Shown piece by piece: positions 59,336-61,181 of a stretch of DNA of 64,000 bases. The notes beneath the pieces were generated by a model. The model searched no databases and had not been told where the DNA came from. It worked only from the letters and a program-made list of their open reading frames with translations. Positions within the stretch are counted from its first letter, which is position 1. The number at the start of each line of letters is the position of its first letter. Location: positions 826,784 through 890,783 of the forward strand of contig NZ_SDMK01000002.1 of the NCBI RefSeq assembly GCF_004123295.1, given 5' to 3'. Position numbers and translations under genes: made by a program. This DNA is from Silvibacterium dinghuense (GTDB lineage: Bacteria; Acidobacteriota; Terriglobia; Terriglobales; Acidobacteriaceae).

Positions 59336-60028
59336 CTACACCTCGCCTCCTGTACCCTTCTTTGCGATCCGCACGGCCTCGTCAATGGCCTTCTGCGCGC
59401 GTTTCTGCCGGCTCTCCGGCGACTTGTAGTAGAAGATGCCCCACAGGTGTCCGCGCCGCTGTGCCGGGGTCATCTTTTCCCAGCCCGCGCGCGCCAGCGG
59501 AGTCCGTACAAATGCTGCTTCGAGAATCGGGGGCGTCTCGCGCTCGCCCTCCATCATGTTCAGCAGAATCTCCCCAAAGTCCTCCGCACGCCTCCTGCGC
59601 GCCGCTTCGCTCTTCGGAGCGGCTACCTGATCTGCAACATACTTGTGAAAGCTGTACGGCAGCTTCTCCCACCAGCGCCGCAGCGCTGCCTCGCCCTGAA
59701 GCACGCGCTTCATCTCCGCGGGAACCACCACCGTCCGCTCGTCTTCGTCGAGCTCCAGCGTGAACTCGGCCAGAGCCCCGGCCACAACCTTTGCCTCTTT
59801 CTGCATCCGCTTGTTTACCAACAGATAGAGCGCGCCCTTGCCATTTGAGAACAGCGAGGTCCGGAACGCGAAGCCATTGATCTCACCACGGACCTTCGGC
59901 GTCGCACCGGCATCCCAGTCGTCGGTGAACCCCGCAGGCAGATAGGCGACCGTCCAGCCGAGTCCCGATTTTTCTGCCACCAGCGTGGCCTTGAAACGCT
60001 TCTTTGCGGCCTTTGTCATGGTCGTCAC
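59336..60028 (-). CDS. DUF1905 + YdeI family protein
   Basis: 230-aa two-domain protein. The N-terminal DUF1905 beta-barrel (~10-95) includes GWTVAYLPAGF, KVRGEINGFAFRTSLFSNGKGALYLLVNK and the ELDEDERTVVVP strand. The C-terminal YdeI/bacteriocin-protection helices (~105-225) contain ALRRWWEKLPYSFHKYVADQV and KSPESRQKRAQKAIDEAVR. The pairing is common in stand-alone proteins of unknown function. Start at 60028 or nine bases later. It lies downstream of the structured RNA on the same strand, but a hairpin separates them. Confidence 0.87.
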   Translation of the reverse strand: MTTMTKAAKKRFKATLVAEKSGLGWTVAYLPAGFTDDWDAGATPKVRGEINGFAFRTSLFSNGKGALYLLVNKRMQKEAKVVAGALAEFTLELDEDERTVVVPAEMKRVLQGEAALRRWWEKLPYSFHKYVADQVAAPKSEAARRRRAEDFGEILLNMMEGERETPPILEAAFVRTPLARAGWEKMTPAQRRGHLWGIFYYKSPESRQKRAQKAIDEAVRIAKKGTGGEV

Positions 60029-60055
60029 TTTAGCCTAGCGACCGCCAAAATGTGA

Positions 60056-60322
60056 AAGGCCCGCTGCCAGATTCGGCAAAGCGGGCCTTGATCACCGGTG
60101 AACTGTGGAGATTGACCTGAGGCGCCCTCGCTATCCCTTCTGCGCTAACAGGGTGGGCCTCGGCGAGATGGTTGCTGTTCGCCAGGACTTGGGCCGCTGC
60201 CCGCAGGCGGCGGTCCCTTCAGGAGCCGAAGGCGGCTCTAAGCCTCAGTCACCTCACGTTGGGTCATGCAACTGCTACTGTCAGAAATTTTCATAGGCTG
60301 GATCATCCTCCTTTCCCGTGTA
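60056..60322 (-). ncRNA. Candidate structured RNA with leader peptide and own promoter
   Basis: A free-standing unit between the carbonic anhydrase and YdeI genes: promoter (60328-60356), an 18-codon reading frame with an extended Shine-Dalgarno sequence, a folded core, and a terminator-like hairpin (60056-60089, AAGGCCCGCT/AGCGGGCCTT). The core (60113-60251) is closed by UGACUGAGGC paired with GCCUCAGGUCA. Inside are GAGCCG-CCUU-CGGCUC, a GC-rich hairpin capped by UGCG, GGCGA...UCGCC with a 12-nt loop, and a longer GCCC...GGGC arm: a multi-branch junction typical of riboswitches or regulatory RNAs. It does not match 6S, RNase P, SRP, tmRNA or the riboswitch cores I know. Confidence 0.5.
60238..60294 (-). 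CDS. 18-aa leader-peptide candidate
   Basis: Reads MKISDSSSCMTQREVTEA and stops inside the 5' strand of the RNA's closing helix. The sequence upstream (60296-60315) is, apart from one inserted base, complementary to 19 nt of the conserved 16S rRNA 3' end, far more than a usual ribosome-binding site; AGGAGG is 12 nt from the ATG. Translation to the stop would open the closing helix. Confidence 0.4.
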   Translation of the reverse strand: MKISDSSSCMTQREVTEA

Positions 60323-60327
60323 CGAGC

Positions 60328-60356
60328 AGGCTAGTCCAGGCCGGAAAACAGGTCAA
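60328..60356 (-). promoter_or_regulatory. Promoter of the structured RNA
   Basis: TTGACC, 17 bp, TAGCCT on the minus strand, placing the transcript start around 60320. Five of six bases match at -35, three at -10. Confidence 0.55.
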
Positions 60357-60381
60357 GACGCAAGCCTGATACGCGAGCCGC

Positions 60382-61110
60382 CTATCCCTCCAGCAGCGTC
60401 ACCCGGCCCGTGCCGAGGTCATAGGTGCCTGCCACGATCTTCAGATGGTCTTCACGAACCATTTCAGCCAGCACTGGCGATGCTTCGCGCAGCAGCGTGG
60501 CCTGAATCCTCGCATTCTCCGCAATCGCCATCTCGAGGTCATGTCCCGCCTTGTCCACTGCCGGCTGAATATGCGGAAACAGCGAGCTGATCTGTCCCGG
60601 CACCGCTTTGCCCTGCATCGTCGCCTTCACGGCACCGCAACTCGCATGTCCCAGAACCAGGATCACCTTTGTCCCCAACACGGCCGCGCCGTACTCCAGG
60701 CTGCCGATGATCTCCGGCGTCGCCATATTCCCCGCCACACGGGTCACAAACAGATGCCCGATGCTCTGATCGAAGATCAGCTCCACCGGAACGCGTGAGT
60801 CCGCACAGGAGAGCAGAGCGGCGAAAGGCTCCTGCTTGTCCACGGTGTGGCTCTTCAATATCTGCAGGTCGTGCTCGAAGCTCGTCAGCCGCCCTTCGAC
60901 AAACCGCGCATTGCCGTCCATCAGCTCTTTCAGTGCTTCGTCAGGGGTCAGCGGTGTCTGTGCAGAAGCTCGGGGTGCAAATGCCTCTTCCGCGGCCAGG
61001 CCCGCAATCAGCGATGCCACGCCACCCGCCAGCCCGGTGCCCAGAAAACTGCGCCGGGAGGTTCGGAAAGCCTCATTCCGTCCTTGCGCAACGCCATCAT
61101 TGCATTCCAT
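60382..61110 (-). CDS. Beta-class carbonic anhydrase, Tat-exported
   Basis: Zinc enzyme interconverting CO2 and bicarbonate. Zinc ligands and the Asp-Arg dyad are present: Cys102 and Asp104-Arg106 in SCADSR, His155 and Cys158 in GHASCG. Start 61110 has GGAG upstream and yields a twin-arginine signal, TSRRSFLGTGLAGGVASLIAGLAA, so the folded metalloenzyme is exported to the periplasm. Length 242 aa. Most beta carbonic anhydrases are cytoplasmic; the Tat form is a known minority. The structured RNA follows 26 bp after the stop, with its own promoter. Confidence 0.94.
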   Translation of the reverse strand: MECNDGVAQGRNEAFRTSRRSFLGTGLAGGVASLIAGLAAEEAFAPRASAQTPLTPDEALKELMDGNARFVEGRLTSFEHDLQILKSHTVDKQEPFAALLSCADSRVPVELIFDQSIGHLFVTRVAGNMATPEIIGSLEYGAAVLGTKVILVLGHASCGAVKATMQGKAVPGQISSLFPHIQPAVDKAGHDLEMAIAENARIQATLLREASPVLAEMVREDHLKIVAGTYDLGTGRVTLLEG

Positions 61111-61181
61111 AGGAGATCTCCGTGCTTCGAGGTAAATGCGCCACATCATAGCCCGGAATGGCTCGAAAGATCGCCGCAAAA

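Follow-up and report, generated by a model that had tools for sequence, protein, structure and literature searches.

A conserved small RNA of Acidobacteriota, very probably translated and read as a diverged branch of the Ms_IGR-5 superfamily

A small RNA gene lies on the minus strand of the window (the whole stretch of 64,000 nucleotides analysed here), at about 60322-60056. We conclude that it probably specifies a translated, structured RNA that is remodelled by the ribosome it recruits. In the fuller reading that we prefer, to which we give an even chance, it is a free-standing sRNA gene of the Acidobacteriota branch of the Ms_IGR-5 family, translated, ribosome-remodelled and acting in trans. 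An earlier reading of the locus from its letters (hereafter the sequence-only reading) had proposed an undescribed structured RNA with a leader peptide. The RNA that it noticed is real and proves to be conserved, and its interpretation is partly supported. The RNA is not without relatives; what is new is the reach of the finding, which takes in a second phylum and supplies an orphan sRNA family with an ORF and a structure of which we found no description.

The gene carries its own signals. The promoter noticed in the sequence-only reading is present on the minus strand (60328-60356) and is of sigma-70 type as read from the sequence, with TTGACC at 60356-60351, a spacer of 17 bp and TAGCCT at 60333-60328. 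It is conserved in homologues: hexamer scores of at least 8 out of 12 occurred in 88/105 homologous loci versus 36/525 shuffled stretches, and scores of at least 9 in 43 loci versus 4 shuffled stretches. The terminator-like hairpin, AAGGCCCGCT...AGCGGGCCTT, likewise stands at 60089-60056 of the minus strand (arms 60089-60080 and 60065-60056). Just three Us directly follow it in the window copy, a poor U-tract; a strict terminator was found in 79/101 homologous loci and in 11/303 shuffled ones. Comparison with homologues thus shows that the window RNA has a predicted promoter and terminator of its own, and that both are conserved. By inspection, the minus-strand gene upstream (60382-61179) seems to encode a beta-carbonic anhydrase that bears a signal of the twin-arginine type, and the minus-strand gene downstream (59336-60028) looks YdeI-like.

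Homologues are widespread in the phylum. When 100 related genomes were searched at the DNA level, long matches turned up in part of the window's family and in two genomes outside it; both RNA ends are conserved, and the middle is variable. A pattern scan of named genomes returned at least 119 stretches. Among the 80 matches listed, 78 came from records named as Acidobacteriota, and Granulicella, Edaphobacter, Terracidiphilus, Terriglobus, Occallatibacter, Bryocella, Korobacter and Angelobacter all occur among them. A covariance model (R1), built from an alignment of 74 sequences (A1), matched 59/396 Acidobacteriota genomes, including 42/44 of the window's family. A second model that included distant members (R2) matched 84 of the same 396 genomes, about 20 of them weakly (E 0.0006 to 0.007), and again 42/44 of the family. 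Among the 100 nearest relatives R2 matched 77: 52/60 in the family, 10/14 in the sister family f2 and 15/26 in the rest of the class. With both sets joined (ten genomes are in both), 85/94 distinct family genomes were matched, and five of the nine without an R2 match are incomplete (74-89%). Within the window's genus, 4/8 other genomes gave no match, all four of them incomplete (74-89%). The family genomes G020, G426, G047 and G054 are 93-100% complete and have no R2 match; G020 is just 2.4 Mb.

Beyond the window's family (f1), R2 reached at least 18 other Acidobacteriota families: f6, f27, f29, f30, f39, f48, f50, f56, f57, f63, f74, f79 and f82 in the 396-genome set, and f2, f3, f5, f8 and f10 in the nearest-relative set. 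Sequences were inspected for the 13 families of the larger set and for f10; f2, f3, f5 and f8 are included by model match. Within the same class, f3, f5, f6, f8 and f10 were all matched, and none of 11 genomes of f4, f7, f9 and f11 gave an R2 match, which reflects either loss or divergence past the reach of the model. A plain pattern, free of model assumptions, was found in 44/396 genomes and its reversed control in 6; matches in G192 and G415 were judged coincidences. The RNA is usually single-copy, with one R2 match per genome in the 396-genome set. Second copies were seen as a weak second R1 match in G225 and as two R2 matches in G019 and in G044 (76% complete, 6% contamination). Viral contigs, searched with one pattern, and plasmids gave no match to the RNA.

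The homologues support a set of helices that tie both ends of the RNA to its short ORF. In the helix P0, the 5'-end CACN pairs with N'GTG within the ORF; in the window copy these are CACG (60317-60320), close to where the RNA probably starts, and CGTG (60255-60258), on the minus strand as are all window features below. P0 is 100% paired in the 40 rows of alignment A3, where one pair takes all four Watson-Crick types (GC 28, UA 9, CG 2, AU 1) and another takes two (AU 37, GC 3). It is paired in 54/55 rows of alignment A2 (broken in L029; with a GU in L032), and, in a tree computed by FastTree with the P0 columns left out, its pair type changed about 10 times; both alignments were fitted to R1, which already contained P0. 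P0 is not clearly retained in A4 among its ten most distant rows, which as aligned pair at 2-4 of the 4 positions (one row at all four).

A second helix, P1, pairs GGTGnCTG with CAGnnCACC and joins the last codons to the 3' end. Its strands are GGTGA-CTG (60246-60253) and CAG-T-TCACC (60097-60105) in the window copy; 94.8% of A3 cells are paired, with AU, GC and GU at the variable pair. The same CTG has another partner in P1b, which pairs CTGAGGC (60242-60248) with GCCTCAG (60117-60123) and scores similarly to P1. This is the helix that the sequence-only reading had drawn over the end of the frame; we count 7 contiguous pairs overlapping the last ORF codons, compared with its 10 bp. In A3, the cells paired and the covariation score are clearly above those of shuffles and of slid partners. 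The number of pair types was matched by 91/500 shuffles and the other measures by 0 to 7; in a further covariation test, which took in P2 and P3, pairs changed on both sides were matched by 55/500 shuffles and the other measures by 0 to 7. Two hairpins, each with covariation and compensatory changes, lie further along: P2 (GAGCCG/CGGCTC, 60223-60238, 81.1% of cells paired), whose first base is also the final one of the stop codon, and P3 (CCTGGCG...CGCCgAGG, 60158-60186, 84.3%). Covariation in homologues was one of the checks that the sequence-only reading had proposed for its structured RNA; it is present, and the proposal stands.

The stop-codon region has a further candidate partner. P1c would pair CGCCTTCG (60227-60234) with CGAGGGCG (60123-60130) in competition with P2, and the long-range complementarity is kept across lineages. 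In a register-free test, complementarity between the stop-codon region and the strand before GCCTCAG was far above chance (17.26 versus 13.3, sd 0.48) in a thinned set of 38 sequences, an outcome that would be the same for a pseudoknot or for an extension of P1. The starting set of 102 lost 3 sequences removed by hand, 2 without an anchor and 1 without the 5' motif, leaving 96, of which 85 were distinct and 38 were kept after thinning. We rejected a fixed-register pseudoknot in which the P2 loop would pair with the strand that precedes GCCTCAG: all four positions pair in 31/74 A1 rows.

Folding energy is not exceptional (z = -1.35 for the minus strand and -1.54 for the plus strand). The RNA stands above chance because promoter, terminator, ORF frame and covariation are conserved. 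Single-sequence folding gave mean pairing probabilities of 0.13 for P0 and 0.15 for P1a (85 of 102 sequences scorable). At such low values, P0 and P1 would need help or be transient. Covariation and the energy model are thus at odds, and we trust covariation more for the existence of the helices and less for their persistence.

The ORF, MKISDSSSCMTQREVTEA*, occupies 60294-60238. The 18-codon frame seen in the sequence-only reading is therefore present, and we conclude that it is very probably translated, since stops are absent from the Glu-Val frame across homologues and frequent in the other two. The comparative tests used 105 loci, the distinct cores from 108 examined in the window's lineage (the 3' motif is absent in 3 of the 105, and a few of the remaining matches are weak). 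Between start and Glu-Val, no locus has an in-frame stop, whereas stops interrupt the other two frames in 93 and 97 loci. An ATG follows the ribosome-binding site in 104 loci, and in every one of them the first such ATG is in phase with Glu-Val; this test is free of choice, whereas the start-to-Glu distance takes seven values that are multiples of three by choice of start. A stop follows 5-6 codons from Glu in 104 of the loci; in L044 it is gone from the usual place. Distant members agree: an open in-frame start exists in 36/36 loci, the first ATG or GTG is in phase in 32/33 distinct loci, and all ORFs read ...Glu-Val-x-x-x-stop. Their other two frames are closed in 29 and 24 of the 33 distinct loci; their starts were picked as open in frame, so the zero in-frame stops are there by construction.

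Codon usage within the ORF is unusual. AGT makes up 55% of Ser codons in homologous ORFs, compared with 6% when 32 long ORFs from the window are counted. In A1 ORFs, AGT and TGT are far commoner than AGC and TGC, a preference that also puts many stops into both other frames and that may serve slow wobble decoding or the suppression of frame slips.

One alternative is that the RNA is a small mRNA whose functional part is a Ser/Cys-rich micropeptide, its structure merely tuning expression. The ORF is kept in the lineages examined, selection on it is modestly purifying (pN/pS of 0.59 in frame versus 0.94 and 0.88 out of frame, over 220 overlapping pairs), and Ser and Cys account for 27% and 13% of its variable codons in the window's lineage. 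Yet sequence and length drift freely: members run from 11 to 22 codons, with the Glu-Val-x-x-x-stop ending in nearly all of those examined, and several, such as L025, L068 and L106, lack Cys. Moreover, the residues that vary least, Glu-Val, come from a stretch of RNA that also takes part in P0/P1. We therefore consider a functional micropeptide unlikely, while leaving it a real chance.

Just upstream of the start, the window copy carries an extended Shine-Dalgarno region, GAAAGGAGGATGATCCAGCC (60296-60315). The 3' end of the 16S rRNA from the same genome (L157) reads ...GCGGCTGGATCACCTCCTTTCT / GGCTGGATCACCTCCTTTCT, and the region complements 19 nt of this tail with one extra A, in agreement with the sequence-only reading. 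The complementary stretch is conserved in A1 and in distant members, where the extra base is usually absent. The longest unbroken match to 16S (10 nt) is within the range of shuffles, so the case for pairing is made by two adjoining tail blocks together with their conservation. Complementarity of the RNA to 23S rRNA was not above that of shuffles.

Such a long complementarity near the 5' end, seen in the window copy, A1 and distant members, could also suit a decoy that titrates 30S subunits or the 16S tail, with translation incidental. A decoy, however, has no need of an open frame, and stops are excluded from one frame and no other; tail pairing would also be equally good without the extended structure. 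We hold a decoy to be quite unlikely.

The genes behind the RNA differ between loci. A ThiG-like ORF lies downstream in 26/105 loci (first in 21, second in 5), a RuvC-like ORF in 10 and a YdeI-like ORF in 3 (L001, L012 and L014), and otherwise the neighbours are varied. These names come from reading the sequences, and the counts are lower bounds, as 13/105 loci have less than 900 nt behind the ORF. A constant gene directly downstream, which a cis attenuator or leader should have, was not found among the 105 loci. Because the downstream genes differ, we regard the RNA as a free-standing gene. Of the leader peptide proposed earlier, the short translated ORF thus finds support in the comparative tests, and its role as a leader in cis does not.

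In translated leader attenuators, competing hairpins follow a short ORF whose codons are unusual, and dual-function sRNAs combine an ORF and a regulatory structure in one RNA. The window RNA differs from both in having no constant downstream gene and in having its own terminator. Its order of ribosome-binding site, short ORF with special codons, alternative hairpins and terminator is leader-like, and the ThiG-like neighbour recurs; even so, the diversity of the remaining downstream ORFs makes a transcription attenuator or leader of a downstream gene very unlikely, and no antiterminator for the terminator was found by eye. A plain untranslated sRNA or a chance structure, which the ordinary fold stability would allow, is extremely improbable given the frame, covariation and distribution results.

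We return to the free-standing, translated RNA and its relatives. Rfam at gathering thresholds found nothing in the window, and at E<=10 the region 60000-60400 gave two chance-level matches (E 0.74 and 2.3). The Rfam check proposed in the sequence-only reading thus left the window copy without a family, and in this respect 'undescribed' holds; it does not hold for remote homologues, which match Ms_IGR-5 (RF02471). Scored with this model, the distant Acidobacteriota members L206 (50.6 bits) and L194 (47.3 bits) exceed its gathering cut-off, which is 45. In whole genomes RF02471 matched 18/396 at E<=0.01, with G300 (50.3) and G232 (50.6) over the cut-off and G248, the genome of L194, just under it (44.5). 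The window's genome is absent from these 18, and the window copy itself gave no match up to E 10. Three genomes of its own family (G207, G058 and G348) reach 23.6-26.4 bits (E 7e-4 to 3e-3), at the same place as the RNA found by R1. The model gave no match in 14 control genomes, Corynebacterium glutamicum included.

The likeness extends to the order of landmarks. In model alignments, the Ms_IGR-5 family has an ACAC at its 5' end, followed by GGAAGGAGGUGGUCC, then GUGAGGUGgCug, then AAUnCC..CAGnCACC and finally a terminator, as do the homologues. The order ACAC, GGAAGGAGGUGGUCC, GUGAGGUGGCUG, AAUnCC..CAGnCACC, terminator is kept in homologue alignments and in A3 rows, and the window copy shows the extra base and AAUCUCCACAGUUCACC. 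The Rfam consensus line can also be read in frame as ...CysGluValAlaAlaArg-stop, a property of the consensus. The window copy differs in the extra base of its 16S-complementary stretch and in a middle part of its own (P1b, P2, P1c and P3), and the structure drawn in Rfam is unlike the P0/P1 structure. The actinobacterial side of this comparison consists of the Rfam model and published papers. We read the window RNA as a diverged branch of the Ms_IGR-5 superfamily; it is not filed as a member of RF02471 because its score was tested and stays below the cut-off.

Published passages describe the actinobacterial relatives. In both M. abscessus and M. smegmatis, Ms_IGR-5 homologues are reported to carry footprints of ribosomes, with the caution of the authors that most characterised noncoding RNAs in E. 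coli data show footprints too (passages of PMC4974804). Transcripts of the family are described in Streptomyces (passages of PMC8079986 and PMC8780764), and the M. smegmatis ncMSMEG15794c overlaps IGR-5 (from part of PMC10454040). We found no functional study of Ms_IGR-5/RF02471, or of the Caulobacter sRNA CC2171, in the open literature, most subscription papers being outside our scope.

How could such an RNA work? The long 16S pairing would capture 30S subunits. In a closed form, P0 would hold the 5' end against the middle of the ORF and P1 would hold its last codons against the 3' end, and the stop-codon region would have two competing partners, P2 and P1c. Translation up to the stop codon would pull P0 and P1 apart. 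The ORF is AGU/UGU-rich in the window's lineage, and we take these codons to be slow there. A ribosome paused on Ser/Cys codons would cover P0 and P1 and leave P2 or P1c free; a ribosome at the stop would cover P1b, P2 and P1c. How the RNA divides between closed and open shapes would in that case be a readout of ribosome availability or decoding speed. Our guess is that, in one of these shapes, either the whole RNA or its 3' strand, which is rich in C and A (AAUCYCAACAG), acts in trans. Translation-dependent refolding is plausible, as it fits two mutually exclusive predicted pairings around the stop codon.

A broader claim is tentative. The RNA may belong to a deeply conserved class of ribosome-gated sRNAs in at least Acidobacteriota and Actinobacteria, defined by 16S-tail pairing, 11-22 translated codons and switching between closed and open forms by ribosome position. 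If true, it would act in trans, as a housekeeping gauge of ribosome supply or decoding, and would not attenuate a neighbouring gene. The comparison itself links an orphan sRNA of Actinobacteria to a gene widely kept in a second phylum, and it gives this sRNA a covariation-supported structure (P0/P1) and an ORF with strong comparative support. An sRNA without known function thus becomes a testable ribosome-coupled RNA. This relative is open to easier genetics in laboratory strains of Mycobacterium smegmatis or Streptomyces, and the results could carry over to soil Acidobacteriota.

Two other Rfam families were considered and rejected. CC2171 (RF01867) shares, in our reading of the alignment, a 5' end with GAAAGGAGGUGAUCCAG followed by a possible GUG-started frame. 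The window scores 12.3 bits (E 2.3) against a gathering threshold of 75; the best homologue, L200, reached 24.7 bits (E 0.09), and a further search gave 18.2 or less. The resemblance to the window copy is mostly in the ribosome-binding region and could be convergent. The Betaproteobacteria toxic small RNA (RF02278) is described as a short conserved sRNA of unknown function (in part of PMC4603805). It is like the window RNA in being short and conserved and differs in its 64-position model; it has no match at the locus, and its best score elsewhere in the window's genome is 18.5 bits (gathering 50).

Some loci have an unusual form or label. Two MAG contigs labelled Verrucomicrobia and Rhodanobacteraceae (L080 and L108) carry a Granulicella-like form of the RNA and are probably misbinned Acidobacteriaceae. 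In L014 (1253-1589, genome G006), P2 and P3 are set apart by an extra block of ~115 nt that by eye resembles a repeat element inserted into the variable middle. By eye also, L235-L243 and L246, from several distant families, show a GC-rich hairpin ~60 nt upstream of the RNA, and an upstream GGGCG, a potential pairing partner of the 5' CGCCC. The TTGAC promoter is not evident at its usual place in these loci, and the RNA may be longer there.
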